DNA from: Corallium rubrum
Taxonomy: Eukaryota > Cnidaria > Anthozoa > Scleralcyonacea > Coralliidae
Direction: 5' to 3'
DNA length: 64,000 bases
Assembly (NCBI GenBank): GCA_964035015.1
Contig: CAXIUP010000245.1
Span: forward strand, 1-64,000
Shown here one piece after another: positions 521-26,303 of the stretch. The notes beneath the pieces are model-generated. The model was not told where the DNA came from and ran no database searches. It was given only the letters and a program-made list of their open reading frames with translations. The position numbers and the translations under genes were made by a program. The stretch's first letter is position 1, and each line of letters opens with the position of its first letter.

Positions 521-597
521 GCCCCAGTCTCTCAATCTCAATCGCGCATAGAGCGGTTACCAAGTCACGCGGTTCCACTGATGCTTTTCTCGCCGCC
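521..597 (+). promoter_or_regulatory. Left inverted-repeat leader and probable promoter of the integrase gene
   Basis: About 77 bp between the minisatellite and the start codon. It is repeated inverted at 6934-7010 with one visible difference (cacgcgg versus cacacgg). Both genes of the element must start from this same sequence. No clear TATA box is visible; the sequence around the start is gccgccATGt, a good Kozak context. Confidence 0.5.
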
Positions 598-2640: not shown

Positions 2641-2761
<121 letters not shown>

Positions 2762-2823
2762 ATTAATATATAATATAAAAATTTTATATTGTATATACTG
2801 CATTTGAGTTTTTATTTTAATCA

Positions 2824-2896
2824 CTACTAAGTACAGTGAATTTATTTATTTTTTTAAAATAAGAAAATAAATCAATCAACTCACTGTACTTAGTAG
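2824..2896. repeat. Short inverted repeat (hairpin or tiny MITE)
   Basis: Arms ctactaagtacagtga (2824-2839) and its complement (2881-2896) with an AT-rich loop of about 41 bp. It could be a small non-autonomous element or a stem at the 3' side of the integrase transcript. Confidence 0.7.
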
Positions 2897-4683
2897 ATTT
2901 TAATTATTTCTTGACAAGCCCTCTTGCAAGATCTTACACAATCTTGATCATGATCCTACGAGGCTACAACTTCCATCAGCATTCTATGATTTGATAGTCC
3001 TTGTAGGATCTTGGTAAGTCTTGTAGGTGTTACGTGACCGCTATACACAACAAAAAGTGTAACCTCAGCTGTTTGGTTCTTACAATTACTTATTTCATTA
3101 ACAAGAAACTTAGAACAGATAGTGAAAATGACAGTATATAAAGATTAAAACTAAACTGAAGTTCAGAAACTTATCTGTCGTCTGCGCACAACGAAACAGT
3201 CAATAGGAGATTCCGGCAACAGGTATAACAATCCGTATGGACTTGAAAAGGAAGGAATAATAAAACCAATGGCAGGAACTCCATGACTGACTTCGTAACC
3301 ACTTTGATACATATAGCTCACTCTCATACATATGCATGCCTGATAAATGTTCGACGGCTGCTTATATAGTTTCTAGAGTATATAATTATAGCAACATACT
3401 TCATTCTATATAATATATTTACGTAATTACTAAATGACATCATAGCTGACTCAAGTCACAAGTATGTACTGTCGTGGAATCTTCTTTCCACTCTGGTTCG
3501 AAAGTCACAATGAGCGCGATCTCTTTCAAAGGGACTGTATCTTTCTTTTTAAAACATTTATTTCTCTCTCACAAACAATGTCACTTCGATGGACAATCTC
3601 AATCTATTAGTTACAAGGTTTCTTATGAGACTTATAGTGGGCCACACCCCATTATCAAATTACTTAAACGATACACCATTTACCCTATGCACGGTATTCA
3701 TTAAAACGATCAAACCCTATTATATTTTAAAGTTCTCCAATGGCATTAATTATTCTAAATTGTACGTTACATGAAATATATTCAACATGTACTAATTGAT
3801 CACAAGTACTTATTAAGTTTTCAGTGATCAAATAACGTCTAGTTAATTAACTGTCTTAGGATAGGCATATCCGTAACATAGGGTCTGTTATTATTGTAGG
3901 TATTGTTAATAGTTGTAATAGTACAAACATTTTTATTTATTTATTTTTGTAATGGGTTAATTTTTTTGTTGTGTCCCCAATTAGCATGTATAATGGTAGA
4001 ATTATGTTGACACAAATAAAGTTTATCTATTTGAGTGGGACCGCATCTTACATGAGATCTTACAGGGTTGTTTACCAAGAATTTGATATTATTTTAATTA
4101 TGCTATGCAATTTGGACTGAAAATTAAAAATATTCTCTATATAACAACAGATATTTTTTCAACATTACATAGTTTGTTTTTATTAAAGTATCTCAAACAA
4201 AGTATAACAATGTGCATGATTTTAGAATGTAATTTTGGAAGTGGCACTGTTTTTAATCACTTAGAATTTACTTCTTTATGGGCATTCAGTTAATTAGAAG
4301 AACTAGAACAACAAATTTGAATTGCTGAAAACTACCAAGGTATAACAATATATAACACATTAACAATGTGCATAAAAATAGAATGATTTGTACACATATA
4401 CAGCAATAAACATACTGTATAATAGTACACTAAAATAAACATTTTGATAGTCTCAAGCATTAGAACGTTAAGCATCTTAAATAACAGTCTATAATGTTTC
4501 CCACATGTTAGAATATAATCTAAAATAGTATTCCAAAGATTATATTATTGTGTCTCATCTAAAATACTTACAATAGCTTACAGAAAACCACTAAGAAATA
4601 TTGTACTGGAACTTACATGTCAAATGCAATAGCTCTTGGTAAACTCTTCAACATATTAACCACAAATGCTCAGTACAAATGTA

Positions 4684-6933
4684 TCACACATTACCAAATC
4701 CTGGGGATTCTGCTATGCATGAAGTAAATTCAACTTTAAATTTGTCGTAACTCAGAAATGTGCTATTAATGGGAAGGTGTAGAGCATTGGAACAAGTGTT
4801 AGCAGTTAGTTTTCTGCCTGAATCATCATGCATGAATGTGATTGATGGTTGGTCATCAAATCCAACTGCTGGAATGGAAGAACTTCCAGTTATGAACTGC
4901 AACACAGTGGCTAATGTGACTCTCAGCTCAGTCTGTTGATCGGTAATGAAGTCAACTACATTGCATGTGATGTTGCCAGACTCCACTTCTTCAAGATACC
5001 TTGAAAAATTCAGAGACACTGCTTCCTCTGCACTGCGATTGTTACTTCCTCTTGGTGAGAATATTGGCAAAAATAGGTCATCCAATTTCTCAGCTGTAAG
5101 TTGGTTTGCTGTATACAAAAACAGTTGGCGGGCTTTGAGGGGATGTTGGCGCAGGTGGTCAAGCAAGCCATGGAGGTTCAGTCCATCAACAAACTGATTG
5201 ATTTCAGATAAGGAAGTCAGCAAAGTGTAATGCAATGCAACTGCATGGAAAAGTTTTCCTTTGTCTTCAGCGGTAACAACTGGTTTGCTAAAACCAGCCT
5301 TGAAGCGAAAAGGACTTTCAAAGGATGCAACCTTTGTGAAAACTTCTGGATCTTCAATTTTCTCCAAATCTTCAAGCTTTTGCCTCACTTTGAGATTTGG
5401 CACATCTGAAGTGCAAGTAGTAGTAACTTTTTCAATCTTGCCATAAACAATGTAATCTGCTATAGCAGGAGCAAAAAAGCAAGGAGAAGATGATCCTTGC
5501 AGGATTCCCATGGCACATAATTGTCCATATATATAATAGTTCCTTTGTTCCAAAGAAAGAATGTCATGATTGAAGCACTTTCTATCCTGCTCACCAATGA
5601 ACAGGCCAGAGTTAGACATTTCATTATGAAGCAACGAAAAAAATTCGTTTCTTGGTCCACCTTGGTCCACAGCGGCTTCCCCAACAAATTGGATTTTAAT
5701 AATGTTCTTTAGGTCATCATTGGAGCACTTTTTCATCTTGAATTTTGCATCTTCCCAAACATTACTTCGCCTCACTTTTACCCTGAGTGGTGTGTCATTC
5801 CTTAGTTTCTCTACAGCCAACTTCCTAATGACACTAGAAATTGGCTCAACTTCATCCTCTTTACTTTCACTCTCCACAGGACCTATGGAGCATAGTAAAT
5901 CATCATTGGTATCTCTAAAGTCATCATCACTGTCTATGTTATTACAAAAGTCAAATGAAGCATACACTTGCTGTGGTGTTGTTTGAAGAGGTACGGTTGT
6001 GAGAATATTGCTGATGGCTGTCTCAATATTATAATGAGCATTATGTAAAGCATCCTGTATCTTATTGTCATCCAGCTGGGGAAACATTTCACTCAGGGTG
6101 TTATATTCTGATTGATGGGAAACATCTGATTGAGAACCACAAGCTTTGGGATTCTTACTATCTTCAATGGTAAGAACTGGAGTACATGTAATCGAGCTTT
6201 TAACATCTGAACTTGTGCATGGATTTGAAGAGTCAAGCATAACTGCCAGGTCATCATTGTCTTCTAAGACTTCCAACTTTATGGACTTTGATTTACCTTC
6301 TTTGTATTCCACAGCATCTTGACCGTCATCACTGTCATTGTCTTCTACCATGCATTGTTGTAAAGTTGCAAGTGAATAGTCAACTTCTGGACAAAGAAAG
6401 AATGTAAGTCTGTGGTATGGCTTACCACACTCCTCTTTGTATTTATGCAATACAAACATTTCATCAGCCTCTTTAAGTTTCTCAACTTTAGTGCCATCCG
6501 AATAAAGTATTACGTATTTGGTATTTGCTTTGATAATATTCTTGGAGTGTGCTTTATGTTTATCCAGAGAAAGTTTTAAAAGTTCTTCAGCATTGGCTGT
6601 TTTCTTTAAACTTAACACCAAAACTTTGCCACGTTGAATCTTTAGTTCTTCCCCATCAAAAAGCATAATGCCAGAGTTTATCCGGGCCGTAGCATTGGTA
6701 TCATCAATCTTCCTTTTTGCTTTGCTTTTGCCCTTTCCTTTGGAAGGAGGGCGGAAGTGCTGGGCTCTTTCTTTTTCTTTACTGAGTTTAAATTCTTTAA
6801 ACGTCAGTGGCACTTGTTCCTTCTTACCAGAGTCTTCTTCTGCTGCAGTTCGGGGCTCGTCAACTCTTCTCCCACAAGTAGGGCAAAAGACATTGGATGC
6901 ATGTAGTTCGTTTCCACACGAAGAACAAAACAT
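4684..6933 (-). CDS. HECT-type E3 ubiquitin ligase with zinc ribbon and CUE domain, transposon-encoded
   Basis: A single open frame of 749 aa, apparently intact and intronless. Residues 1-40 are identical to the start of the transposase at the other end of the element, including the four-Cys zinc ribbon. Residues about 100-182 form an unassigned globular region. Residues about 278-312 (LSEMFPQLDD...AISNIL) look like a CUE ubiquitin-binding domain. From about residue 385 to the end is a HECT fold, with the conserved VDQGGPRNEFF segment and the catalytic motif TANTCSNALHLP, cysteine at 714. HECT ligases take ubiquitin on this cysteine and pass it to a substrate. Substrate unknown; the shared zinc ribbon suggests (inference) that ligase and transposase bind the same DNA or partner. 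It resembles G2E3-like proteins common in fish and invertebrates. The start is fixed by the duplicated exon. Confidence 0.88.
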   Translation of the reverse strand: MFCSSCGNELHASNVFCPTCGRRVDEPRTAAEEDSGKKEQVPLTFKEFKLSKEKERAQHFRPPSKGKGKSKAKRKIDDTNATARINSGIMLFDGEELKIQRGKVLVLSLKKTANAEELLKLSLDKHKAHSKNIIKANTKYVILYSDGTKVEKLKEADEMFVLHKYKEECGKPYHRLTFFLCPEVDYSLATLQQCMVEDNDSDDGQDAVEYKEGKSKSIKLEVLEDNDDLAVMLDSSNPCTSSDVKSSITCTPVLTIEDSKNPKACGSQSDVSHQSEYNTLSEMFPQLDDNKIQDALHNAHYNIETAISNILTTVPLQTTPQQVYASFDFCNNIDSDDDFRDTNDDLLCSIGPVESESKEDEVEPISSVIRKLAVEKLRNDTPLRVKVRRSNVWEDAKFKMKKCSNDDLKNIIKIQFVGEAAVDQGGPRNEFFSLLHNEMSNSGLFIGEQDRKCFNHDILSLEQRNYYIYGQLCAMGILQGSSSPCFFAPAIADYIVYGKIEKVTTTCTSDVPNLKVRQKLEDLEKIEDPEVFTKVASFESPFRFKAGFSKPVVTAEDKGKLFHAVALHYTLLTSLSEINQFVDGLNLHGLLDHLRQHPLKARQLFLYTANQLTAEKLDDLFLPIFSPRGSNNRSAEEAVSLNFSRYLEEVESGNITCNVVDFITDQQTELRVTLATVLQFITGSSSIPAVGFDDQPSITFMHDDSGRKLTANTCSNALHLPINSTFLSYDKFKVEFTSCIAESPGFGNV

Positions 6934-7010
6934 GGCGGCGAGAAAAGCATCAGTGGAACCGTGTGACTTGGTAACCGCTCTATGCGCGATTGAGATTGAG
7001 AGACTGGGGC
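6934..7010 (-). promoter_or_regulatory. Right inverted-repeat leader and probable promoter of the HECT gene
   Basis: Inverted copy of 521-597, with one mismatch. It separates the right minisatellite from the HECT start codon. Confidence 0.5.
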
Positions 7011-7014
7011 GAAT

Positions 7015-7350
7015 GTGTAGTGAGTTTTGTTAATGTGTAGTGAAGATTTGTTAATGTGTAGTGAAGATTTGTTAATGTGTAGTGAGTTTTGTTAATGTGT
7101 AGTGAAGATTTGTTAATGTGTAGTGAGTTTTGTTAATGTGTAGTGAAGATTTGTTAATGTGTAGTGAGTTTTGTTAATGTGTAGTGAAGATTTGTTAATG
7201 TGTAGTGAGTTTTGTTAATGTGTAGTGGAGTTTTGCTAATGTGTAGTGAGTTTTGTTAATGTGTAGTGGAGTTTTGCTAATGTGTAGCGGAGTTTTGTTA
7301 ATGTGTAGTGAAGATTTGTTAATGTGTAGTGAAGGTTTGTTAATGTGTAA
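7015..7350. repeat. Right subterminal minisatellite of element 1
   Basis: About 16 copies of the 21-bp unit, inverted relative to the left array (143-520). Unit order and number differ slightly between the arms, so the arrays have drifted while the coding arms stayed identical. Confidence 0.95.
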
Positions 7351-7426
7351 TTTTACTCTGGTTCATGTTTTTGATTTGGAAATGTGTTTTCATCGTGGTT
7401 TATATAGTGACACGTATGGGCCACCG

Positions 7427-7428
<2 letters not shown>

Positions 7429-7471
<43 letters not shown>

Positions 7472-8209: not shown

Positions 8210-8218
8210 CCCTCCACC
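8210..8218. repeat. Target site duplication of element 2, left copy (9 bp)
   Basis: CCCTCCACC, repeated exactly at 23429-23437. Nine bases is typical of Mutator-like elements. Confidence 0.85.
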
Positions 8219-8226
8219 GGCATATG

Positions 8227-8830
8227 GTAAAACGCGGACTGGACTGGACTGGTAAAACGCGGACTGGACTGGACTGGTAAAACGCGGACTGGACTGGTAA
8301 AACACGGACTGGACCCAATTAGTAAAACACGGACTGGACCCAATTAGTAAAACGCGGACTGGACCCAATTAGTAAAACACGGACTGGACCCAATTAGTAA
8401 AACACGGACTGGACTCAATTAGTAAAACGCGGACTGGACCCAATTAGTAAAACGCGGACTGGACCCAATTAGTAAAACACGGACTGGACTCAATCAGTAA
8501 AACGCGGACTGGACTCAATTAGTAAAACGCGGACTGGACCCAATTAGTAAAACGCGGACTGGACTCAATTAGTAAAACACGGACTGGACCCAATTAGTAA
8601 AACGCGGACTGGACCCAATTAGTAAAACACGGACTGGACCCAATTAGTAAAACACGGACTGGACCCAATTAGTAAAACACGGACTGGACCCAATTAGTAA
8701 AACGCGGACTGGACCCAATTAGTAAAACGCGGACTGGACCCAATTAGTAAAACGCGGACTGGACCCAATTAGTAAAACACGGACTGGACCCAATTAGTAA
8801 AACGCGGACTGGACTCAATTAGTAAAACGT
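8227..8830. repeat. Left subterminal minisatellite of element 2 (25-bp unit)
   Basis: About 24 tandem copies of a unit containing aaaacgcggactggaccc then aattagt, with cgcgg/cacgg and ccc/ctc variants; the outermost units have ggactggact instead. Inverted partner at 22950-23421. Confidence 0.95.
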
Positions 8831-9031
8831 GGCGTATATATTCAAATACGTTTGAACTTGCTTTATTAGCTATATTCGAAAAAATTTTCCCGGCTGTAAA
8901 ATATTTTGAAATGGCCAGTTAAATACCTAATTTGATTGTATTGCCCCCTGAATATTAACCTGACAACGGAAGTATCTTGTACACAAATTCGCGCCAAAAT
9001 GTACACAAAGGGCTTTCTTGTTGCATGGAAA

Positions 9032-12000
9032 ATGGCGGCAAGTTTTAAGTCTTTTAAGCTTCCAAAGCTAATTTCTAAGCCGAAAAAAGATCCAGGCCTC
9101 CCGAAATTTGAGTTGAAGCTGTTCGAGAAAGAAAAAAAGTTGGGTTGTGGTAGTTTTGGCTCTGTGTATCTTGGAGAATACAAAGGTAAAGCGGGGAAAG
9201 TTGTAGTAAAAAAGATAAATGTCGAAACTATTGACTCGACATCTCGTTTTGTAAAAGAAGCTGCACTGTTAAACAGTACAAAGGGCCACAGAAATGTTAT
9301 CCAGTTTTTGGGATTTTGTGATAAACCATATTCCATCATGATGGAATACTCTTCTTTCGATTTTCGACCATTTGGAGCTGAAAAAACCATCAGCACTCTA
9401 GGAGACTTTGTGCATTTTGTAGATGTCGAGTTCGACTTTACGTCGTTTGCAGACGTGTTACCAACATGCGTTAAAGATATTGTAGTAGGTCTGGAATATC
9501 TGCACGATAAGAACATTGCTCACAGAGACCTAAAACCAGGAAACATTTTAGTTTGTAACCAGCATTATAGCAGGTGTTCTCTTGGTGAAAGTGACCTTGC
9601 CAAAGTCTATGGCGAATGTCCAATCGTTTGCAAGCTGGCTGACTTTGGTTTAAGTCGGTCTCTCGACTTACAAACCAAGTCATTATTGATGTCCAAGACG
9701 GAATCAGTCGGTCGTGGTACTCCAGCATTTATGGCACCAGAAATCCATTTGCAGCAACTCTTCCAAGCAAGCCAAGAAGATCTAAAAAAGGCTGATATTT
9801 GGTCGTTGGGGATGGTGATGTATAGTATGCTAAACCCAAATCTTCGAAGCCCTTATCATGCTGAACTAGAACAATTAGGTACGTAATAATTTATAATTTA
9901 CTGTTCATTTACCTCTCTTGCAGTATGGGGCTGCAGAAAACCAGAGTACCGGTATAAAGGAAAGGGTGATAAAGAAGATGGGGTTGAGTTAACAAATACT
10001 CAAAGTTTTAGTCTGGAAAAAAGGGGTCAAACTTGCTTAATGTGGATAGTTAGCCAAAATTAACAATAACTAGTTTTATTTTTGAATTAATAGTCAATAA
10101 ATTAATAGCAATTAATATTAAAAATATTAGTCAACTGGTCCTGGTTTGGTCATCAAAATCCAGTGGTGGATCACCAGTTTAGGGTCCTTTGTAGGATAAA
10201 TAAAATCCATACCCCTAGGAAAGTTGGGGGATGTCGCTCTCTAAAAATTTAGAAATTCCAGAAAATATCCATACTCCCCCCACAGAGGAAATGGCAAATT
10301 GTCCTCCCCAGCAAATCTGTAGTTAATTTTACCCTTCCTGCTTCAGACAGCACAAATTTCCTCTGTGGGGGGAGTATGGTTCTTTTCTGGGATGACCCAT
10401 TCAAGAAAAACCTTACAGTAGGACAGTACTGGCTACCATCTCACTGTTGGGTTAAAAATCATACATAATGCTAATAAAAAAAACATTTTCTCAAAATTGT
10501 GAGTCACTTACAAGCCTGGACTCATATAATAATAAATTTTTGTAGGGCCTGTAGACTTCAGCCTACATACAGTAGCGAACTGGGTAATCCATCACTGCAA
10601 AAATCCTTACACTAGCTAACATGCAGTTTGATGAAGTAAAATGTCAAATATTTTTTAAAATACAGGTACATGTATGCCCAATTCTCCACAAGTATTCTTT
10701 CATTACACATAACTCATTGACTAAACTCTTAAAAATGCATGGCCTCTGTAAAAATTGCTCAGAGCAATGCAGCTCTAGAATTGGAGGGTCCCAAGTCCAA
10801 TCCTAGATGGAAAACCTCAATGTTGCATTTTCACAACTGGTCCAGTTTTGGTCCTAAAATATTTTCATCACATTCTAAATCTTCCTTCATTAAAGGCCTT
10901 GATGTTGCATTGTACAGGAGTGGTTGCCCCCCCTTTGCATGATGAAATGTTGTTTTGAATACTCATACTCAGATGCACAGGTGATTTACCCAGCGGTTAT
11001 TGACTGGATCTCAGTCGCTCTTCTGATGCTAGTGACTAATAATATGAAATGGTACCTTCCTTGGCTCCTAATCCAGCCTCTGTGCTTGTTTATATATACC
11101 CCGAGGCCTGGGCCATGTTTAATAGTAGTGCTGGGCGATACTGAGTACTTGGTATCGATACCATGCAGTGATACCTGGTATCGCTCGATACTTGTACCTG
11201 TTTTTTCAGCTTACAGTGCATTGCGTCTCCATTCTATTTAGCTAAATGTTCACTCCTCTGGAAATGTTCTCGATTATACATGGAAACACCTTTTATTCAG
11301 GCAACACTGTTACAGCATGGTTTCAAACAAAAAAGAAATCTAAACACCGGTTTGTTCACTTCCCCCTTTCGAGCTTTCGAGACGTAGTATTCAACGCATC
11401 GCGCTAATAACGCGTTTCAGTCTCGCCGTTAGCCACATTTTCCGTTGTCGCTCCTAACATAACATTTTGATCTAGTGACTAGTGAGTAGGGTTCAAGATA
11501 CAAAACGTAAATCTCAATTAAATTCTATATTTGCTTTCAAAATTAGCCGTAAACATGTGTTTTGAGCCTTTGTCTCCCCGAAGACCAAGAAATATCCAAG
11601 TCCATGACTTACCTCGATTCTTCATCAAAATTCAGGAACTTTCGCTCGATTTCTCACCACTCAACAACCACCATATTTAAGTCAATTTCGTTTTCAATTC
11701 AACAAGGACTCAAGTCTCAACCCTCCGAAAAGTGCGCGCGGATGGATGATGGAAGTTGGCCGAGCATCGGTCTTTCGTCGATCCGCGTCAACAAAAAGGG
11801 GAGATAAACACCATTGTTTATCAACACGGATACAGAAACGTGGGATCTGGGAACGAGAATACAAGCGATGTTTCAAATTGCGTTTTTCACGCCTCGCTCA
11901 CCGCTCTTCAGCACTTTTTCTTGGTTTCCAATGTTATTCATGTTGTAGTTGTTGTCACTGTTACACACAAATTAATATACTGATGTGATAGTCAAATTGG

Positions 12001-13259
12001 AACAAAATGCGCCATTAAAGATATGTTTTAAAACTTTAAAAATTTTGCTCATATTAAAGTGGTAAAGTGGTTTCAAAATTGAATTAAAAATGCGGGAAAG
12101 GCCATATCATTCAGTGATCCAAATTTCAAAATAATTTCCCGAGGAAGACGTCCCTGCATCCCCTTACACATGCGGACACACAACAAGTTTAACTACAAAG
12201 TACAACGAGCCTATAAAGTTAACATTACCACCCTATTTTCGGCGAAAACGCTACGCGGCCTCGGCCTTATAATCGTAATGTCAGAGGGTGGTAAAGGGGG
12301 GGGGGGGGGGGATGTATGGATCACTGAATTTCCCAAACAACACAATGATTATTTCACATTTCACGTCTTTCACGTTTCATATAGAAACAGTAATATTCCG
12401 ATTTTATTACAAAATATATCAGACCATTTGTAATAAAATCAAATCAAAATGTATTATAAATCTATACGCTTTGTTCCGCGTTATATAACTCAAATCTTGA
12501 GTTTAAAAATTTATATATAAGCAAATGAAAATCACAGCTCATGACAAATTGAAAACTTAATTCACATTTTAACATACGTTTCACGACACAAAAATCTCCG
12601 CAGATTGGCAATTCACGCGCGGCCAAAGAAAATACTTTTTACCACCCTCATATCATGCTAACTAATTAATTTAAATAAAGCCCTTGGTTTTCAAATGTTA
12701 CCTTTCATACAGTTATCTTGTTTTAAACTTGAATATATCAAGTATTAAACAAGATAACGATTTTCTATTTATGTTCTATCAGTTCTTGTTAGTTTCATAT
12801 CTAATTATCACTAATGAGAGACAGATGCCCACAACTTTAATTTGTACTATCGGTAAGATGTACTATGATGCCCACAACTTTAATTTGTACTATCGGTAAG
12901 ATGTACTATCGGTTAGTATATATATATATATATATATATAGACTGGGAGAATATTAATAAGAACTTTTCTTTGAATCGTAAAAGATTTTGAAAGTTTCTT
13001 TTAGGTGTTACGTTTACTGAAGCAGCCTTAAAAAACTATATGAAACAAGGAACGTTACCTCGCCATGACACTAAATACGAGGCTCTACGGGCTACTCAGT
13101 GGTGCCAAATTGACGAGACGTTTAAATCCTGCTGCAAGTTTGAACCGAATTCCAGACCATCTGCAATGCAGGTACTTTGTAACATTCAGAATGACGTGGT
13201 TGGAACTGAACAAGAAAGCTTGTCCTGGGTGACCAATCGTCAACGTAAGTGCATACATG

Positions 13260-13317
<58 letters not shown>

Positions 13318-15633
13318 CGCACACAAGTGGCACACTATTACACAGCTGTAAGTCACAACAACTGAAGAGTTTTATCACTCGGCTTGCAATATTACTTGTG
13401 CTTGCAGCCATTGCATTTAACTACAAACAAAGAGCAAATTTATCGCAGAAATATGCATCACGATTTTAGATAGAACTCTTGTAAGTTTATATTTTTATGA
13501 CATTATGTTTTTTTAAATTTTTGCATGATTTCTTTTATTGTTTTTATTATTTCTATGCAACGGTTTTTCAATTCTTCAATTTGGCAATTTTTATGCAATT
13601 TCCTTTTGTATTTTCATTTTTGATTTTTCTGAAAGTGTATATGATTTACGCACGTCACATCATATTACATTTTTATGCAAAGAACTAAAAACAAAATCCA
13701 CTTTGGTTTTATAACTTCTTTTTTCAAACCACATTGTTACTGTTTTGTTTTTTTCCATAATAATAAAGAAGACAGTGCTGTCTCAAAGAAAGACAAAAAT
13801 GAGAAAGCAAAATCATCTCATACTCCGATGGAAGAAAGAACAAGTGAAATACTTCTGGATGTAAGTTTAAAAATGTATATACACAATTGTAAATAATCTC
13901 TGCAATATGTTTATTATATGCATGACAAAATTACTGCATTCTGATTGGTTTATAAGTAGAGTACGATTGTTTTATAAATTGTACTGCAGTACAATTAATG
14001 ATTTAATTTTGTCATGTTTTGTCATTTTGTCATGCATATAATAAACAAATAATCATATTATATTGCTCTTACAATTAAGCATTTACACTACTCGTTATAT
14101 TTGAAAATTGTGCCAAATAGCACTCGCCTAACGGCTCCTACAACTTTGGCACAATTTTCAAATATCACTCATAGTGTTAATCCTTAACTGTACTCGCTAT
14201 CATATGATTACCTATACATATAGAATTTTCAACTGCGGTTTCCAGCTGGGAAAGTAATATACCAACAAATAAATTGCGAACTCGTAATCTTTTTCGATCG
14301 GTTGCTCCCTGGCCTAAGTAAAAGGATTTATGAATTTGCATTCTTTAAAAGAAATTTTGGGGCAATTTTTTTGTAATGATACTTAAGATATAATGGCACC
14401 CCGCAATCTAGTTATATATAGATCAATGGCATGTCAGTGGTTTAAACTCTTTATAGTTTCAGAGATCCTCACTCGCATGGATATTTAGCACAATGCTTAA
14501 TGCATACAGTAGTAGTACCAATCTAAAGGCTTACATATCTGTGACGGAAAGGTAGCAACTTCTGCCCCTTAAGGCAGTGTTATTGTATATTTATTTCCAC
14601 GAGAATCAGGCATGCATGTTTATGATTAATGCAACGGCATGCAATTACATACCAAAGAATATGAGCATAAACAAGCTACAAAACTTGCATCCCAACATAA
14701 TTCAAAATTTTGCTTTTTACAATTTATCTGGTGTGGCTTTTCCTAAATGATAATGTTTAATGCACTTGTCATTCACATTATTTTTACTGACTTGTATACA
14801 TCGATTTTATTTTACAGGGAGAACGGATGGCCACTTCAAAAAGAAAATTGAACAAGGATGCGGATGATTATCCTGATGCTGATAAATCCCTGCTACAATA
14901 CAGTGAAGGTGACGAATATTTTTAACATAAATTTTTTTAACATGAAACATATATATAACTTCCAAGCATCTGGAAATAGATTATATATATATATACGTCG
15001 TAGGGTCCCTTGCTTTTTCTACACGTGTGTAAAATGGACTCCACGCGTGTCGAGATTAGCACCCTCACCGGGCTCGGGGAGAAAGGATAATAAATACCTG
15101 ATACGTTTTTATGGCCTAATTTATAATATGCGACTTTTTCAGGCAACTTGTTTAAATGAAAAACTGTAAAATAACTTATTACTAGGTATTTTTTGTATCC
15201 TTTATACGGATAATATAGGTACTTTAAAATAAGTGAACAAAATTACAGATAGAAATCTCACTTTGATTAAGGGCACGAGAAAAATATTCCAGAAAGAAAA
15301 GTAAAGAAAACAAAGGTGGACGTGGACATCGACAGCAAGAAGATAGAGGTTATTCACCTAACAATTGAAGACCAAAGTAGTTTTGATGATGATTCGTTTG
15401 TGGTATGTTTTCTAAATACAATATTAAATAGGTATTAAACATTTCTATTTTGCCATAAAACTGGTATAGAACTAATTACATGGACATCGCTAAATTAGAT
15501 ACAGCAACATTGTTACATACTTCCATAACTTATCGACTTCCTCCCTTTGTTTAGTGTTCCCTCTCCTCGAAATTCACAAAAAAAACTCGCATGTTTATAA
15601 TAATAATTAAAAATACTGATTGCATCTAACTTG

Positions 15634-15685
<52 letters not shown>

Positions 15686-18600
15686 TTCTTTTATTAAAAA
15701 AATATACTAATGTTCTACAGAATGACGAGGAAGACACGGCAGAAAACAAAATACGTCAAGTTGTTATCAGTCCAGAAACTAAAGTTCAAGGTATATAAGT
15801 GCAAATGTTGTAGTGACGGTATAATAGCGATTCTGTTTAAAAACCCTTTCTTAAATTTTATGTTATCAGACATTCCATGGTGACTCGCGTGACCAAGTCA
15901 CAAAATTTTAGGGTTAAAAGGGTTATTTTTTACTACTTCTAATTTAGCAAGGATCAAGCTTACTTTATTACAATGAAGCTCCTGGGGATATAGTCAAGTT
16001 AATATATTTAATTCCTAATAATTTTATTTAATGCCCTCGATTTAATAACTTATTGTCATGTGACTCGCGTGACTGCCAGAAATGTGAAAATTCCAATTAC
16101 TGGGATTCTGATTAATTTTCCTGGCAACTTATTGATTTTATTTAATCCTAACCTTTATAAAACATATAGTGGAATATAAGGCTATGACACTCCAGTGAAA
16201 TTTTAGAAAAATCTTTTTTGGTTTAACAGATAATGTTACAAGTAAAACGTGACTCGCGTGACATAAGACTGTGACTCGCGTGAAGGGGCGAATAACATAA
16301 CAAAAAGCCTGTTTAAATGACAAAAAGTCAATGGTTTTGTTTTCTCATTATTTGTTGGAGCCATTAATGCCACTTGCAATAATAATTTAGAACAAGATGG
16401 ACAACTGGAAGCATATTTTTAGAAATGCCACAAGTACCCCACGACTTCTATGAGAATTTGTATAAAATGGCTTTTAATAGTGTTAAAGCAGCCAAATCAA
16501 TATTTTAAGAATAGAATTTGAATTAAATACATCTATTTAACATTCTGTGTTGATTTGTTCCTTGATCCACTCCATTTGACTGATATGAACATCTCAACGG
16601 CTTTGAATTCTATTCTTGTGACTCGCGTGACGTGACTCGTGTGACGAACTTGAGGGTGATTTTTCTCTGAAGCTACTGAAAATATTTTCCTAGATTTTTG
16701 GGGATTGGTTTCATTAACTAAGAGTACCAAGTTGTGATAGGCTTAAAGAAGTTGTTCAAATTGACAGGAAATAAAAATTCTTTATGTGAAAATATTGTGA
16801 CTCGCGTGACACTAAAATGAGGGTGTTTTCACTGTGGGCTAACACAAAGCCGATACCTCATTTTGAAATTTAGAATTTGAAATAAGTTATTAAATAGCAA
16901 TGGCAAGTTGAATACATAAACTAATGAAGAAATTTAGTTTTGATACAAGAAATAGGACACTTTTCTTAAAAAGTAACAATATTTGTTCTAATCAATGCAT
17001 AATTATCTATGTTCTTATTTCTGTTCCCACAATGCCTGTGGGTAATTGTGGTAATTTCTTTTTCACATTCCAGAAGGGCAATGTATTGTAGCATCCAAAA
17101 ATGGTATTGTAGGTGTTATTATGTTAATTTATTTTTTTCAATAATGTGTCATTCTTGTGGAATGGCTGTTATGCGGTTTCCCATGAAATTTAACTGACAA
17201 TCACCCCCATAATTTGGTCTCTCGCGGGCGACATTTCTAGGAATTGTGCTCTTCTTGGAGGTGAGAATCTTCTAAGATATTTGCCTCCTTCTGGGAAACT
17301 TGATACTCTTTAGCATAATTTATGCAGCGACTTTTTAAAACAGATGTGAGTTTGTCATATAATCATCTTAATTTCAGTTTTGTTAGTAATTCTTTACAAC
17401 TTATATTTATCTAAGAATTTATTTCTTTTTAATTATATTTACCTAATCTAAAAAAGGTATGTTATAATTATCTCATGTCTATATTGTAAGATCCTGCACT
17501 CCCCTTTAAATCTTAGACTAAAACATTTCCTATGAATTATCTCTAATCTACCGGAAATAAAAAACTAATTGCTTTACGATCGATGTGTACTCATTTTGTC
17601 ACAATGTCACTATCTATCTTATCGATTTTAGCCCAGCTTTGCGTTATAAATTTTTTTGTTAATCTGCACACTTAATGTTTTAGGAAATGAAAGTAAAAGT
17701 GTAGAGACCGATGAAGGCGAACAATTGCCTCCAGGATACATCGCCGAAAGCAGCTTATACAAAGATGACCCAGCTTTACCTGTATATCAGTGGGGGCTAA
17801 TGAAAGGAATGTGCACCGATAAAGTGGCTGAAATACTCATAAAAGGCTGCATAGATCGTTGTAAAGTGGCCACACGGGTTCCAACAAATGTCGAAAAGAA
17901 TACAGTTTTTGTTGTAGACACATCAAAACTCTCTGATAAAGATGACATAAAGTGCGACGACCTTGGAGCTTGGACATGCACGGGATCAAAAAAATTTGCG
18001 TACTCTATAAACGAGACAGGTAATATTCGCAAAGAAGATGAAACCGACAAATCCTTTGAGGAAACCGTTAGTGTTTACAACGTCCAACGGCAATTTTACA
18101 GCAATAAAAGCATGCGATCTCTACGGAAGACAATCATAACCGCCCGTGATGCAATTTCGACAGTGCCGAAAGATCTAGCATTTATACAATACGTTTTTAC
18201 TGAAGGTGAAGGAGAAGTAATTGTCAAATCCCATGGAAACTCGAAGAATCCTAGATGCAGTGCATATAAACGAACAATGAAGAGTACCGTTAGCATGATA
18301 AAGCAGAGCCTAAGCGAATTACCTGCGCGTGAGACTGTACACAAGATTATTAATGAAAGAGGAGGAATCATGAAGATTGAATCATCAGGTGCATTGCCGC
18401 GAGATCGAGCCCAGGTGTACAACATTGCTAAAGGAATGAAGAAAGACATAGCACCATCTTCAATTCCAAATGATGATCCGTTATTGCAAGTCCTTGTAAA
18501 GGCCAAGCAAGAACAGCAAGGCAGAACTGAAGATATCCTTATTCGAGAACTTCCTTTATTTCCGGAGCCAACTGTTTTTCTTGCTACACAACAGCAACTG

Positions 18601-21195
18601 GTTGACATCGAGCGGTTCTGTTCAAATCCTGAAAAGTTTTGTGTACTTGGAGTAGACGCCACCTTCCAGATTGCAACATTTTACTTCACTTTTACCACTT
18701 ACCGAAACCTGATGTTAACCACAGAGAAAGGCAACCATCCAGTTTTTATAGGTCCTGGCATCCTCCATAAACAGAAGCTTCAGACGTCTTATCAAACCTT
18801 ACCCCTCCTGATGACCAAATACCACAAAGGTACAAGTGGTGTCCTGGTTTACGGTACCGACGGCGAAGAAAATATTGCTAGTGCTTTTTCCCAGGTTTTT
18901 CCAAATGCACAACATCTTTGCTGTGATATCCATATGAAAGAAAACGTCAAGCGAAAGCTTGCGGAATGTGGTATCATGGGCCACATTGCTTCGGAAATCA
19001 TGTATGATATTTTTGGTAAGGCGGTAAGCGGCGACAAAGTGGAAGGAGGGCTAATTCATTGCACGTCTGCAGAACAGTTTGACAGTGCTTTGGAGTCGGT
19101 CACATCGAAGTGGATCAGCGCGCATGAGAAAGGTCAAACGTTTGTGGAATATTTTCTAAAAGCAAAAGCAAGCGTTATCCGAGAAACCGCCAGATCTGAC
19201 ATAAGATCTATGTGTGGCCTTGGCTATCCACCTACTGTGTATACGCAGAACGCCAACGAGTGCATGAATCGCCTTATTAAGGCCGAGGAAGGTCCAAAGT
19301 TGTCCAAGAAGCAGGCTGCACTCATTCCTTATATCGAAAGAATAAGAGCAGAAATCAAGCGCCAACAAGACGAGCAGTTCCTGGCAGTTATTGGCATGGG
19401 TCAGTATCGTCTGACGAAAGAGTTTTCTTTTTTACGCGTGGAAGACAAGCATTTCTTTCGAATGAGCGACTTACAGAAGAAGACCTTGAAGAAAAAATTA
19501 TTTTCCGTTTCTGTATCAGAGTCAAAACGACGTGAAGAGGAAGCTTCGAATACCCAATGCCTGTCGATAACTCCGGAAAAATCTGGAATTATCGAAATTC
19601 CATTTCCAACGCTTGAAGATATGTTCAAGAAAGCTGCCAGCACGGTTAACGACGAATCTCTAACGTGGAAAATCCCAGCTCCTATGGATGTCGATAGTAG
19701 CTCTTCAGCGCATTATACCTTCCTGGTACATAGTAAATCATCTCGCGATCCTCATAGAGTAACAGTATCAATCAAAACAGGAAAAGTCCAGTGTGATAAG
19801 GCTTGTGTGGGATGGTGTACCTACAGTTTGTGCTCACACAGTCTTGCGGTAGCCGAGAAAAATGGGGTTCTCAGAGCATTTCTTCAGTGGTTCAAAAGTA
19901 GGAAGCGTTCTCCAAATTTGACCGGTTTAGCAAATATGAACATGCCAAAGAACTCCGGTCAAAAAATTGGTACCCAGAAAAGGAAAGGAGCGCCAAACAA
20001 GCCATCCACAAAAGGCAAAACAGTTGTTTCTAGTAGGGTGTCGCAACTATCACAGCCAGTTGTCAGCTGCCTCCCACCGTTCTGGCCAGCTCTCGGTCAA
20101 CATCCATCGTCTCAGTCAGCTTTCAGTCAGCGTTCACCATTCCTGTCAGGTGTGAACCCTCCGTTACCGTCCCAGTCAGTTTTCAGTCACCCGTCACTGT
20201 CTCAGACGACTCTCGATCAGCATCCACCATCCCAGTCAACTTTCGGTCAGCATCGACCGTTTCAGTCAGCTATCGATCAGTATCCACCATCCCAGTCAGC
20301 TGTCGGTCAGCATCCCCCGTCTCAGTCAGCTTTCAGTCAGCGTGCACTATCCCTGTCAGGTCAGAATCTTCCGTTACCGTCCCAGGCAGTTTTCAGTCGC
20401 CCGTTATCGTCTCAGATGGCCCTCGGTCAGCATCCACCATCCCTGCAGCCAGCTCTCAGTCAGCGTACACCATCCCAGCCAGCTCTTGGTCAGCATCCAC
20501 CGTCCCACTCAGCTCTCAGTCAGCGTACACCATCCCAGCCAGCTCTTGGTCAGCATCCACCGTCCCACTCAGCCCTCAGTCAGCGTACACCATCCCAGCC
20601 AGCTCTCAATCAGCATCCACCGTCCCGGTCAGCTCTTAGTCAGCTTACACCATGCCAAGCAGTTCGCAGTCACCCGTTGCCAACCCAGACAGTTCTCAGT
20701 CGGCTTTCGCCGTCCCAGCCAGGTTCTAACCTCCTTACATCGTCCCAGTTATTTCATCCAAATGAAACCAGCTGCGTCCACACCCCAGAGCCTCATAATT
20801 CAATTCCAGTTACAACGCAAATGTCTATCCCCGCACGGCCCAAACCTGCTCCCGGGGTCTTCATGTTTGGTCGACTATCATTTCTGGATAAAAAAGTGTT
20901 TCGCTGTTACGGCTGTGGAGAAACGTTGAAACCAGAAGGAGTTATGCCGCACCCTCCCGATGACCTTGTGGTAACCACTAGATTACACAGGAAATACTAT
21001 CAAGAAGGCCAACAAATAACATCGCCCAGAATTTCCTCGGTATATTTTCATCTCAACACACATTGTGTTCGAGCAGCTTGCCCAGCTTTTGCAGCTACAG
21101 TTTGTGAAATGCCGAACGATTTAATTCCATTCTTGTTTCCACAACATCAGGAGGCACTACTTAATCGCCTTGGTATTACCTATAACTATATTTAA
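9032..21195 (+). CDS. Protein kinase fused by splicing to a MULE transposase (seven exons, 1,653 aa)
   Basis: Exons (inferred): 9032-9878, 13005-13244, 13769-13860, 14818-14908, 15293-15402, 15721-15790, 17684-21195. All introns are GT-AG and the phases agree throughout with no stop. Exons 1-2 encode a complete Ser/Thr-type kinase: G-loop GCGSFGSV (38-45), K60, E76, HRD 164-166, DFG 204-206, APE 235-237, DIWSLG, and the final R in NSRPS on exon 2. Exons 3-6 encode a charged, lysine-rich linker. Exon 7 encodes the transposase: D808 (GVDATF), D876 (GTDGEE), E1009 (NANECMN), a CDIH motif after the second D, a SWIM zinc finger near 1186-1210, a Pro/Ser/Gln repeat (about 1273-1510) and a C-terminal Cys/His region (CYGCG...). 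All catalytic residues of both enzymes are present. Kinase phosphorylation of its own transposase is an attractive but untested guess. An in-frame ATG at 8999 could add 11 residues; 9032 has the better context (aaaATGG). Two separate genes are the alternative, but no stop or second promoter supports that. Confidence 0.82.
10269..10379. repeat. Hairpin with 23-bp arms (MITE-like)
   Basis: catactccccccacagagga at the left is matched by its complement at the right end, enclosing about 60 bp. Looks like a tiny foldback element in intron 1. Confidence 0.75.
11128..11220. mobile_element. Possible solo hAT-type end
   Basis: gtgctgggcgatac followed by ggtatcgatacc and ggtatcgctcgatac resembles the ends of hAT elements I have seen in several animals. 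I find no matching second end downstream, so it may be a fragment. Confidence 0.35.
12825..12909. repeat. Two-copy 43-bp tandem duplication
   Basis: Two adjacent copies of gatgcccacaactttaattt plus 23 further bases, directly before an AT repeat. Confidence 0.8.
13260..13316. repeat. AT microsatellite in intron 2
   Basis: Perfect AT repeat soon after the exon 2 donor (caac|GTAAGT). Confidence 0.95.
13910..14046. mobile_element. MITE-like inverted repeat in intron 3
   Basis: Arms gtttattatatgcatgacaa and its complement enclose about 95 bp. A second palindrome (ttgaaaattgtgccaaa and complement) follows at 14094-14167, so the element may extend to about 14240. Confidence 0.65.
15638..15682. repeat. 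AT microsatellite in intron 5
   Basis: Perfect AT repeat about 40 bp before the exon 6 acceptor. Confidence 0.95.
15880..16810. promoter_or_regulatory. Seven copies of GTGACTCGCGTGAC in intron 6
   Basis: Exact copies at 15880, 16060, 16249, 16618 and 16797; variants at 16271 (last base changed) and 16632 (CGTG for CGCG). Spacing of the main copies is 180, 189, 369 (2 x 184.5) and 179 bp. The motif is close to palindromic. The sequence between copies does not look repeated. It could be a protein-binding array or the conserved core of a decayed tandem repeat. Confidence 0.6.
20050..20760 (+). repeat. In-frame 30/60-bp repeat encoding the Pro/Ser/Gln domain
   Basis: Alternating 10-residue units of the type SQPALGQHPP and SALSQRTP inside the last exon of the kinase-transposase gene. 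The array stays in frame; two consecutive 60-bp units are nearly identical, pointing to recent expansion. Confidence 0.85.
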
Positions 21196-22949
21196 ACACC
21201 ATAAGATAGTATAGCGGTCCGCTATATACGTTCATCAAATTGTGTAGATTGTCTGTTGTTGCGTTAACAGTTGTTTAAATTAACTGCAGCTATGACGTTA
21301 ATTTATTCCAGTCAAAGTGACAAATATTTTTACACGAAACTTGTCGCGGTATCCCAAGGAACGTACTGATGTTTCATTACCTGCATGTATCAGTGTTGTA
21401 GTTCTGTAGTCCATTTACTTAAGTCCAGTCTCAAATCGAGTCTCAAAGATTCCTATATAGTCAGTCGAGTCGAATCTCAATTTTTTAGCCGAGTGGGTAG
21501 AGTTATTTATGCAGCTCGAATCGAGTCAATTGCCTCGGTAGAATCATTTAACTATATTCTTATTCTTTAACTTAACATCGAGGTAGAGTAAATTATATAC
21601 TCTAGTCAGTTTTGATTTTTACTCGGAGGATGAGGCCCTAAGCCTATTTCCCACATGACCAACGTAAATCGTCACACTGCATAAATAGTAAACTTGAACA
21701 GACGTGCATGATTTTCAAGCCGTTTCCATACAATTGTCTCCAAGGACTCTATATGGAAGAATTACACAACAGTAATTGGCCTCTGATTGCGATCGTACTG
21801 TACGCAACATAGATCTGATCCTATATTTGGACAATTACAATCGCAATATCCGCGTTAACTTCCGCGTCAATCGTTCCAGTAGTGATTGGGATGATTATAC
21901 ATTCACCTAAACCGATCCTTAGAACATGTATTGCTATACTCGCTCGGTTGGCAACTGACTCGAGTCGGCAATAACTCAACCACATGTACAAGGCTTTATT
22001 ATACTTAGTTCTAGGAATTTCTGCATGTTCTTTTCCGATACAATACATTCAAAAAGGAAATTTGTCATGTGTAGAAAGTTTTGTTCAATTACATCAACCA
22101 TGCACTACTATGAACGGTGAATAAATAAACTTACTATAAAGACTGACAATGTTATCCAGTTTTTCTTTGAAAGCATGGAGATTTGAACAAACATAACCCA
22201 AAGGCCAATTAAATGCGGAAGAACATTACTTTAACTATTGGGAGAGATAATCAACTTATCTCGTTGGTAGTCTTTGCAGTATAAAACCATGGTTGGTGGA
22301 GGGAGATGGTTTGGAAACTCGGCAAAAGTCATTGTTCTGTGGTTTTGTTCAATTTGTCTAATTTCACAGTCACTGAACGTATTGTGTTTTCTGTATAATG
22401 AAACAGTCACCCAATATAGCAACGTTCGGGTTTAATTAGTGCAGTCCTTCGTCGTCACGTGTTGTAAGTACTTTGTTCGTTGTGTAGTCCTTGTCGTCAC
22501 GTGTCCATCGTCGTCACGTGTCCATCGAATTTCCTTTCTTCAACCAATTGCCTTCCTCCAACATGAACACAATAACATGACCATTGCATAATCTTGAAAG
22601 ACAATGGAGCTTGCAAACCACCACCCTCCGCTAACTATGATAAAATGACAATATGAATAATAACAGAGGGCTTGTTCAGAGTAAATTTTTTATTAAGCAT
22701 TAAAATGTTCCCGCTATGGCGTCAAATGCAGACACGGTTTTCTCAGTCTCATTATTCAGTTGGAAGCATTTGGACAAAACTCATTCATCGTAATGTAGCT
22801 TTCGTATGAATGTTTTTCTTTTTCCATTGTCAAGCGAAATAGTTATGAAAATCGATCAACTTTAAATGACAAACTCTAAAAAAATATGGCTCATGAAGCA
22901 AGCTTAACTTTTCAAACGTATTCGAATATATACTCCGTGTCTTACTAAT
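21196..22949. other. 3' flank of the fusion gene within element 2
   Basis: About 1.75 kb with no supported gene. It contains three CACGTG boxes in cgtcacgtg contexts (22456, 22498, 22515) and, at about 22915-22940, the inner part of the terminal inverted repeat. Confidence 0.6.
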
Positions 22950-23421
22950 TGGGTCCAGTCCGCGTTTTACTAATTGAGTCCAGTCCGCGTTTTACTAATT
23001 GGGTCCAGTCCGCGTTTTACTAATTGAGTCCAGTCCGCGTTTTACTAATTGGGTCCAGTCCGCGTTTTACTAATTGGGTCCAGTCCGTGTTTTACTAATT
23101 GGGTCCAGTCCGTGTTTTACTAATTGGGTCCAGTCCGCGTTTTACTAATTCAGTCCAGTCCGTGTTTTACTAATTGGGTCCAGTCCGCGTTTTACTAATT
23201 GGGTCCAGTCCGTGTTTTACCAATTGGGTCCAGTCCGCGTTTTACTAATTCAGTCCAGTCCGCGTTTTACTAATTCAGTCCAGTCCGTGTTTTACTAATT
23301 CAGTCCAGTCCGTGTTTTACTAATTCAGTCCAGTCCGTGTTTTACCAATTGGGTCCAGTCCGTGTTTTACTAGTCCAGTCCAGTCCGCGTTTTACCAGTC
23401 CAGTCCAGTCCGCGTTTTACC
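22950..23421. repeat. Right subterminal minisatellite of element 2
   Basis: About 19 copies of the complement of the 25-bp left unit, with an extra variant (aattcagtccag) not seen on the left. Confidence 0.95.
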
Positions 23422-23428
23422 ATATGCC

Positions 23429-23437
23429 CCCTCCACC
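23429..23437. repeat. Target site duplication of element 2, right copy
   Basis: CCCTCCACC, identical to 8210-8218. Confidence 0.85.
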
Positions 23438-23485: not shown

Positions 23486-23510
23486 TATGGGGGGTGATGA
23501 CCGCCAAAAT

Positions 23511-23625
23511 TAACTAATGACATTATGCAATGACGACATGACATTATGCAATGACGACATGACATTCGGCAATGACGACATGACATTATGCAATGACGAC
23601 ATGACATTCGGCAATGACGACATGA
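23511..23625. repeat. Left subterminal minisatellite of element 3 (21-bp unit)
   Basis: Five copies of cattatgcaatgacgacatga, two with cattcggc instead of cattatgc. Inverted partner at 37036-37204 has about eight copies. Confidence 0.95.
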
Positions 23626-23769
23626 GCCATGCGAACACACAATCTTCATGTACAGCGGATTAACACGCCATGAGCCTGACGAACACGCGGTCCATATCGT
23701 CAGCGGTAAACGCCCAAAAATTGTAGGTACTTTAAGTAGCCCTGACATTTACCTACAACAAAAATTAAA

Positions 23770-26260
23770 ATGGCGGATGACACGAGGAAAAGGTGCGAAG
23801 CAGCGCGATTAATGCGAGAAGCCGCCAAACTGCTCGAAGACTCGAACAGAGGTCATAGAGATAAACCAGCGCAAACACAAACAAGCACCTCAGGGGAAAT
23901 GCAAAAACTTTTTGCACCGTATCGAGTGGAACCAACAAATTCTCGGCAAACATCTCAGGTTGGGAGGGCCGCGAGGCCCGTGAGGCCACCAAAGCGTCAA
24001 CGGCAACTTGGTTGGGCTCCGATGTTTAATCCATTGCCAACTTGGACGCATCGATTTTGTCTTTTAGCGGATAAAAATGCAACCGTAGCACCAAATATCA
24101 GCGAAAAAGAAAAGTTAAAGAAGATGGGACTAGGAGAACAAAAAATAACTTTTGACGACAAAAAGGGCAAACATGAATATCTCACAAAAGTTTTAGAGGA
24201 GAAGTTCCCATCCTTGAAAGAAGCTGGTGGTTATTTAATTTGCAGAACTGCAGCAGCAAGTCAGCGTTTACAGGTTATTTCTCCTGGTGGAAGTGGTTAC
24301 TCAATACCATACTTACGAGATGATTCTCCGTTAAGGCAGACAGTGGCGTACATTCGCCCTCTGCAAAAATCCATTGATGCATCACAGATAAAAGTGGAGG
24401 TATACTTGCCAAATTAATTAATATATACAGTATGACATTGCGTACTTAATAGTGTTTGTCTAGATTTTTGAAATTTTTATCTAGCCATCCATGGTCTTGT
24501 TTCTGAATTAGACTAGAGAGTTTGTGATCAACAGTATTATAAAAGCTTGTACTGTACACATGTACCTACAGTAGATGGTAAATGAACATATTGTTTGAGT
24601 GTTTAATCATAACACTCTGCTGTGTTGTATTTTCAAAATAGATACCATGGTTAAGGAAGGTTGAAAATTGAAAAAGGGTATTAAGATTGTAACATGTTTA
24701 GTATGTTATGGTTGGGGTTAAATTTCATTAAAAATACATCACCAGAGTTTCTGTCTGAACAAGTTTGAACATTTTTTAATTCTGTTGACCTTTACCATGG
24801 TGTTAGCCAGAAGAAAAGAAAATTCTGCATTTAGTTGACATTGGAAAATAGTGATAGCTCTGAAAAATCAACGAAGAAGGGAGAAAAGAAACCATGGATT
24901 TGGGATTGTATGAGATTTTTGAATTTTATATTATTTATTTAATTATAATTAATTTACTGTAATTGTTTTTGGCAGATGCAAATTGGGTATTTGCAACCTC
25001 AAGTTGATTGGGAAAACTGCATTTTAAGTGGAATGTTTGGTTGTAGCTAACACTCTCTTTACAGATGTGCAGTTATTAAAAATTAATGCAAATTATGCCT
25101 CTATCATAATTTCTACTAAACATGTATTAAATTTAAAATTTTTATTCTTATGGTAGTCACAGGGACGTAGCTGCGGCTCCCCCCCCCCCCCCCTTTTGAT
25201 ATAAAACAACAGACATGTACTACAAAACTGATGGAATATGAATTGTGTCAGGAATTAAACTGTAAACAGTGTATTCAATCTACTGAGTGTATGCATTTTG
25301 AGTATCTATGTGACGTTTGCATGTTTTGAGTATTTTATATGATGTTTTTTAACCTCTAGAGTCTGTAAAATCTTCCTCCAAAAGCCAGGAAATGGTATTT
25401 CAGCGACTCTCGATTTCAAAATTTCATGGGGGAGCATGCATGCCCCTGGACCACCCTAAAAATTTATTTTGATTTCGGCTCCCCCCCTTTCAGAATCCTG
25501 GCTACGTCCCTGGGTAGTCAAAGTTTTACTTGGTACATTCTGAATGCCAGTAATTGTCAATGATTATTTCTTGTTAGCAAAAGGAAGAGACTAGACATGA
25601 AAAACCCACAGTACCGTGCCTTAAGTGCAATTTGCAAATAAAGATTGATGAAAAATCCATGCAAGACCATCAACATTTCCATGCTGAAGAGGAAGCAAAA
25701 AACTGGTATGATGCAATTTCTCTGTTTTCCCCCCTCCTTTTTTCAATCTCCATCTGCTTGCTCAGGTAGTAATGTAATTTAAAAAGACTTACATTACTGC
25801 AGATTTATGTACTTTGTTGATTGCTATTTTAACTCAATTCAAACTGGTATACAAGTTAAATACATACTCTGTCTGGTCTGACACCAGATAATTTTGTTTC
25901 AATGCCAATAGAATGGCTTAATTGTGAGAGGAATAATATTGAAACAAAAAGATTATTTTGGTTAAAATAGATTAATACCATTGTGAACCTATTTAGTTTA
26001 ATGTGTTTCACTCAAACTGTCCACGTAATCAAAAAGGAAATATTTGTATATAACATTTACTGGATAAACTGTATACGTGTATTGCATTATACATAACTTG
26101 ATATGCTGTAACAAGCCCAGGGTCATTTGAGTATGTGTTTACTTTATATACAGGGCAAGGGGGTGGAACGTGGAAGGGTACTAAGGTAACAACTGCTGAC
26201 CCCACCAACAACAACTTCTTTCACTATAAATTAATGAAAAACATTTTATTATTATTATTA

Positions 26261-26303
<43 letters not shown>

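Follow-up and report, generated by a model that had tools for sequence, protein, structure and literature searches.

Does a DNA transposon carry a protein kinase as part of its own transposase? The question is raised by a 64,000-nucleotide stretch of the Corallium rubrum genome (hereafter the window), in which an earlier note had read a kinase spliced in frame onto a Mutator-like (MULE) transposase inside a bounded element. Our analysis makes it likely that the locus is a MULE with foldback-type ends and a predicted kinase-transposase fusion, and that the kinase is an old component of this MULE branch; more tentatively, the kinase may bring phosphorylation to the ends of the element.

Element structure and predicted gene

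The ends of the element pair as an inverted repeat over 510 nt (93%), in keeping with the long terminal inverted repeats of MULEs. Target-site duplications of this group measure 8-11 bp, mostly 9; the window copy has 9 bp, a second copy (locus C158) 9-10 bp, and three deletion derivatives 9, 10 and 9 bp. CCCTCCACC is found at only two places in the 64-kb window (8210 and 23429), directly outside both GGCATATGG ends. The 15.2-kb element with matching ends and a perfect 9-bp duplication that had been described before thus stands, with a length of 15,210 bp (Table 1).

Both ends are composite inverted arrays of tandem 25-bp units (24.3 and 19.5 copies), as in foldback-type elements. Tm1 Mutator/Foldback elements likewise combine composite repeat-built ends with duplications of mostly 9 bp, as described in PMC3169594. 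A minisatellite near the end and 9-bp duplications, both seen here, also belong to the features given for Rehavkus in the covered parts of PMC6446971 (Table 1, section 8); Rehavkus has a PHD finger in its transposase, whereas a Pfam search of the 1,653-aa window protein returned no PHD match up to E 1. Judged from its sequence, the element would be a Mutator-like DNA transposon that may be autonomous and whose minisatellite ends are of the foldback type. Pack-MULEs, as usually defined, lack a transposase of their own; here the transposase frame is intact. The carriage of host gene fragments, as far as the sources covered describe it, is a likeness to Pack-MULEs, from which the window element differs in having kept an intact kinase together with its transposase over long times.

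Table 1. Coordinates of the element, its predicted gene and its transposase motifs in the window
Feature	Position	Strand	Details
Transposon	8219..23428	+	15,210 bp; ends GGCATATGGTAAAACGC / GCGTTTTACCATATGCC; both recur at C158 and in three deletion derivatives
Left target-site duplication CCCTCCACC	8210..8218	.	9 bp, perfect
Right target-site duplication CCCTCCACC	23429..23437	.	9 bp, perfect
Left terminal inverted repeat	8227..8829	.	25-bp minisatellite, 24.3 copies
Right terminal inverted repeat	22934..23420	.	25-bp minisatellite as at left end, inverted, 19.5 copies
Exon 1 (predicted)	9032..9878	+	N-lobe and greater part of the C-lobe of the kinase, with glycine loop, K60, E76, HRD, DFG and APE
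Intron 1 (predicted)	9879..13004	+	within kinase C-lobe; also in copies C201 and C158; not in one-frame kinases (e.g., P0078, C32)
Exon 2 (predicted)	13005..13244	+	end of kinase, then ESLSWVTNRQ (13214-13243)
Exon 3 (predicted)	13769..13860	+	linker; in-frame ATG
Exon 4 (predicted)	14818..14908	+	linker; in-frame ATG
Exon 5 (predicted)	15293..15402	+	linker
Exon 6 (predicted)	15721..15790	+	linker
Exon 7 (predicted)	17684..21195	+	MULE transposase, Pro/Gln-rich repeats (20087-20657), conserved C-terminal Cys/His domain
MULE domain	18643..18945	+	D808 at 18655, D876 at 18859, CCDIHMK (D-x-H type motif) at 18919-18939
Catalytic Glu E1009	19258..19260	+	by alignment
SWIM-like Cys/His motif CDKACVGWCTYSLCSH	19792..19839	+	by alignment; no Pfam match in the window protein

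Seven GT-AG exons with agreeing phases are predicted to join into one frame of 1,653 aa plus stop (9032-21195), and donors, acceptors and phases bear out, at the level of sequence, the seven-exon model proposed earlier. The putative linker exons 3 to 6 are defined by splice sites and frame alone, and no counterpart of them was recognised in the related locus C32. Intron 1, which has TTAG/GT at both flanks and is missing from those relatives that were inspected, could have begun as an inserted element and later become spliced; copies C201 and C158 have about 770-790 extra bases inside it, at 11209-11211. A SUMO-interaction-like motif in the exon 5 linker was dropped as not exceeding shuffled sequence: across seven linkers, 94 to 430 of 1,000 shuffles gave such a motif, and three of the seven had none at all.

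Kinase, transposase and protease-like domains

The kinase matches Pfam Pkinase over residues 31-341 with 133.5 bits (cut-off, 31.7), and every catalytic motif previously attributed to it is in place: K60, E76, D166 (HRD), D204 (DFG) and E237 (APE), the full set of a eukaryotic protein kinase. With HRDLKPGN, which we take to be the Ser/Thr form of the motif, it is by its sequence a complete kinase of Ser/Thr type. The catalytic residues are kept across 137 family segments, counting those with a letter at the site (HRD Asp, 127/132; DFG Asp, 128/130; Lys, 98/101; Asn, 132/132). Comparison of replacement with silent changes had been suggested for both parts of the protein; between the window and C32, silent differences exceed replacement differences in the kinase (pN 0.272, pS 0.726) and in the transposase (pN 0.235, pS 0.856), with ratios that are rough, silent sites being saturated or nearly so.

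Pfam MULE matches residues 804-904 with 25.8 bits (E 1.5e-5), 1.8 bits below its cut-off of 27.6. The transposase motifs listed in the earlier note stood in part: D808, D876 and E1009 form the D-D-E triad of an RNase H-like core, while the SWIM motif proved SWIM-like by its aligned Cys/His residues, with no Pfam match in the window protein; the relatives P0026 and P0027 do match Pfam SWIM. A SWIM or other zinc finger is frequent in MULEs without being universal. The triad is present in 15 of the 15 core-holding sequences of an alignment of 16 rows (A4; the window and 14 relatives, the row of P0011 being without the core). A structure model of the transposase is of modest confidence (mean pLDDT 68.7, pTM 0.42), and its order of strands and helices fits a DDE core. 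Three chains of the ISCth4 transposase, which we take to be an IS256-family enzyme and thus a Mutator relative, head the PDB matches of the model (E 3e-5 to 9e-5, with low TM-scores of 0.2 to 0.4). Six peptide patterns, run once against viral contigs, brought up nothing related to the transposase.

In many family members the kinase is followed by a third region. A profile of it matches 51 of 125 family proteins, including 46/46 of those of at least 400 aa; the seed sequences are among the matches, 37 of which are nearly full length, and shorter proteins mostly end before the region. Gln, Cys and His are invariant in 12 chosen aligned sequences, and the Asp of a D-T-H motif is nearly so. By sequence this protease-like domain matches nothing in the PDB (best E, 0.3), and the best Pfam match is at E 0.011 for one of the 12 members. 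In a structure model of P0154 (pLDDT 87.6) the protease-like part is of high confidence, and among viral structures the model matches herpesvirus large tegument proteins (E 4e-4 to 1.3e-3, at ranks 40, 41 and 49, after kinases whose match is to the model's other half). A deubiquitinase-like nature of the domain, suggested by this modelled fold, is a lead and not a result. The window gene has a phase-1 donor right after ESLSWVTNRQ, as have C32, C13 and C8 behind the protease-like region. In sequence terms, ESLSWVTNRQ is best taken as the remaining C-terminal end of a protease-like domain, the rest of which the window lineage probably lost by in-frame deletion.

Distribution in Corallium rubrum and other animals

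Two other loci of the genome, C158 and C201, hold the window element at 96-99% identity. C158 (96-97%) has both ends and its own 9-10-bp duplication; its exon 1 has an 11-bp deletion, most of its exon 2 is gone and its transposase frame is shifted. C201 is nearly identical to the window, is cut at its 5' side just ahead of the ATG and has a frameshift early in exon 7. The window copy is the only intact one of these three long copies. Since both loci hold the same element, one with a duplication of its own, a chance arrangement was dismissed. In six short derivatives the same left end is followed by an exon 1 cut off after 33, 224 or 330 bases; one internal junction is common to two of them and another to three, and the three-member group, seen to both ends, has perfect duplications of 9, 10 and 9 bp. 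Fragments of the kinase have thus travelled along with the ends of the element.

A DNA search with kinase exon 1, which diverged kinases would escape, found 17 places in the genome. At eight of them, in four lineages, a transposase follows downstream on the same strand: the window copy (C255), C201, C158, C32, two loci in C82, C13 and C8:32717680. In C13 and C8:32717680 the linkage is by coordinates alone, with transposase matches 5.9 and 5.8 kb downstream. Seven further places resemble deletion derivatives (the six derivatives described above, which belong to the window family, and one from a related family, C15), C12 has a kinase and part of the protease-like domain, with no C12 transposase among the matches listed, and one place is a 107-bp fragment. 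C32 has a kinase (53% identity), the protease-like domain, a transposase (62%) and the C-terminal domain; it has decayed, with broken frames and a changed second catalytic Asp. The two C82 loci are more divergent from the window (kinase, 38-41%; transposase, 51-54%). They are near-identical to each other (C82:2962092-2976833 and C82:2773345-2784888), with about 7.6 kb separating the two transposase parts in one and contiguous parts in the other.

The proposal that the kinase travels with the transposon is thus borne out by the near copies C158 and C201 and by three further lineages with the linkage. The same loci contradict what had been named as fatal to it, namely, other copies without the kinase, and a single capture was rejected in view of linked kinases in four lineages here and in other animals. 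Chance neighbourhood was rejected as well: about 3e-4 is expected per given transposase (our own arithmetic for a same-strand kinase no more than 15 kb upstream, given 17 kinase places in 474 Mb), and the linkage is seen in four lineages. Upstream of the diverged MULEs C23 and C1 (30-42% identity), no kinase was matched over 15.2 and 7.3 kb, respectively; not every MULE therefore has one. The transposase search of the genome gave at least 65 matches (58 of 243 candidates scored), a minority of which were looked at for kinase linkage.

Kinase-MULE proteins, which had been suggested as a search target in other genomes, were found there, including in another phylum. A protein search with residues 1-362 returned P0022 to P0027 at E 2.8e-99 to 3e-48 (next match, 1.2e-20), each with kinase and MULE-related sequence in one protein. 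For P0023, P0025, P0026 and P0027, the alignment to the window protein begins in the kinase and extends to include the complete D-D-E triad; P0022 and P0024 stop inside the transposase. P0026, a protein of 1,555 aa annotated as TAO1 in the sea cucumber Holothuria leucospilota, an echinoderm, matches Pkinase, SWIM and, weakly, MULE. P0025 is a genomic open frame on a 4.19-Mb contig; the contigs of P0023 and P0027, at about 5 kb, could be either genomic or transcripts. P0011, a gene model of the sea anemone Actinostola, joins a kinase, the protease-like domain, a SWIM-like region and a HECT-like region without the catalytic core; its HECT-like region is 25% identical to a HECT ORF in the window, and Pfam called no HECT in it. 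P0001 to P0010 are transposase-only single open frames (57-66% identity), in which upstream exons would be invisible.

A search by the kinase alone gives 792 proteins at E 0.001 or better; among the best 120 of these, 118 lie at E 2.4e-31 or below and the next at 8.2e-14. Dendronephthya, Paramuricea, Porites and Actinostola, all of them Anthozoa (two confirmed by look-up), provide the nearest named family members. A quick kinase tree places 54 family rows (of 84 long-enough rows, thinned at 72% identity) on one side of a branch with SH-aLRT 98 and 18 other kinases (of 26 outgroups, eight being too short) on the other, long outgroup branches being flagged. Each of the two deep branches of this tree includes kinases that have a transposase linked to them. 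The transposase tree, in which P0022 fills 36% of columns and the long branches of P0027, P0023 and P0026 are flagged, divides in the same coarse way, C23 and C1, which showed no kinase, lying between the two sides. By these sequences, the association of kinase and MULE is old and spans animal phyla, and a single ancient joining of the two would be the simplest reading.

Alternative explanations and possible role of the kinase

Ulp1 or OTU domains in Ginger1 and Ulp1 in Mutator elements are described in the covered part of PMC2836005, and MuDR-6_HM is listed with an ovarian tumour gene in Table 1 of PMC6446971. These Ulp1/OTU MULEs (plants, hydra, lancelet; MuDR-6_HM) and Ginger1, as portrayed in those portions, resemble the window element in joining a DDE transposase with an extra catalytic domain of host-signalling type; the extra domain of the window element is instead an N-terminal protein kinase, and the protease-like domain of its relatives has been lost from it. 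Fungal IS3EU elements also hold a kinase gene within a DNA transposon, according to section 25 of PMC12730594, but theirs is a separate, opposite-strand alpha-kinase gene in another superfamily, whereas the window kinase is of the Pkinase family and predicted in frame with a MULE. The word kinase is absent from the main text of PMC3169594 (Tm1) and PMC6446971 (Rehavkus) in the versions covered, and the passages considered of a Hydra genome paper (PMC12220107) report no kinase-MULE. The statement that no such fusion had been described agrees with the titles and abstract openings surveyed. Since these report no kinase-MULE, the element is filed as a MULE in which the kinase predicted to be fused to the transposase is what is new relative to the MULEs described there.

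Would the element rather hold two genes, one for the kinase and one transposase message starting in exons 3 to 6, whose products act in trans? One published MULE group has a second ORF (Table 1 of PMC6446971, group 6), IS3EU keeps its alpha-kinase gene separate (PMC12730594, section 25, as covered), and in-frame ATGs occur in exons 3 and 4. Relatives, however, hold kinase and transposase in one protein, which supports the fusion read in the earlier note; a conserved block shared with C32, C82, C23, C1, P0003 and P0009 lies ahead of the first Met of exon 7; and the donor behind the kinase and the acceptor ahead of the transposase are both phase 1, at matching places in the window and C32. We therefore regard two genes as improbable. 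A separate transposase start inside exon 7 is also unlikely, because the first Met there lies downstream of the conserved block. That the gene model is an artefact, with exon 1 a kinase remnant upstream of the transposase by chance, could appeal to a kinase intron that is not in the relatives looked at and to a kinase that would stop after exon 1 without splicing. Exon 2, however, finishes the kinase in frame with conserved residues, and the interrupted form is common to three copies, which makes an artefact very improbable. Scarcely credible, too, is a recent chance capture that left a functionless passenger: MULEs are prone to acquire host gene fragments (PMC6446971, in its covered part) and two other long copies are broken, but four linked lineages here, a relative in another phylum, the retained catalytic residues and a pN that is low relative to pS all count against it.

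A fused kinase-transposase, the reading that we prefer, would probably descend from an ancestral order of kinase, cysteine-protease-like (perhaps deubiquitinase-like) domain and transposase; in the window lineage, we infer, the protease would then have been lost and the intron gained in the kinase. MULE transposases bind the ends of their own elements. Because the transposase of the window would do the same, the kinase could act at the paired ends, to which the DNA-bound enzyme would carry it. There it would phosphorylate subunits of the transposase as well as host proteins close by, of chromatin, repair or silencing, and would so raise or time transposition. We propose such tethered phosphorylation of the transposase complex and its host neighbours tentatively, as the best of the mechanisms considered. 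The kinase probably has a use of its own, because the protease was lost here and the kinase kept.

The same anatomy would also accommodate a kinase that serves as a counter-defence tool against host silencing, innate immunity or ubiquitin signalling, fused only for coexpression; this alternative concerns mechanism alone. Relatives pair the kinase with a protease-like domain whose Gln, Cys and His do not vary in 12 aligned sequences, that domain has a distant fold match to herpesvirus large tegument proteins, and one anemone gene model adds a region resembling the HECT ORF of the window. The permanent fusion of the kinase to an enzyme that binds DNA, however, speaks for action at the element, and the window element has dispensed with the protease; we hold a counter-defence role, the main rival, to be somewhat less likely. 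More broadly, and as a speculation that we rate as possible rather than probable, an animal MULE branch may have kept its own signalling module, made up of a kinase, a deubiquitinase-like protease and, in an anemone, also a region resembling an E3 ligase, attached to its transposase since before the two deep kinase branches parted. Such a module would control the phosphorylation and ubiquitin state of the host at the integration site, with the kinase working alone where the protease is lost, as here.

Transposases are usually seen as regulated by host kinases. If the proposed fusion is real, a transposase with its own kinase would permit direct tests of how transposon timing and host response are controlled. 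Host-like names have been attached to family members, such as TAO1 (P0026), cell division control protein 2 homolog (P0105) and cyclin-dependent kinase 9-like (P0175), and cnidarian and echinoderm kinase lists may include transposon genes.

Other minisatellite-bearing repeats surround the kinase element. At 66-7445 lies a large inverted repeat with arms at 66-364 / 7147-7445 (99%) and 467-716 / 6815-7064 (100%) and 21-bp minisatellite arrays; it brackets a zinc-ribbon/CUE/HECT ORF (4684-7029, minus strand) and a shorter inverted frame with the same start (502-1869, plus strand), and looks like another minisatellite-ended element with a ubiquitin ligase gene. An inverted pair of 21-bp minisatellite ends sharing the terminal ATGGGGGGTGATGACCGCC spans 23487-37234, with its start some 50 bp past the right end of the kinase element. 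A 48-bp minisatellite array at 38221-40865 is followed, about 13 kb on, by a shorter one in inverted orientation whose units are related (53635-53878); the two are perhaps the ends of a further element.
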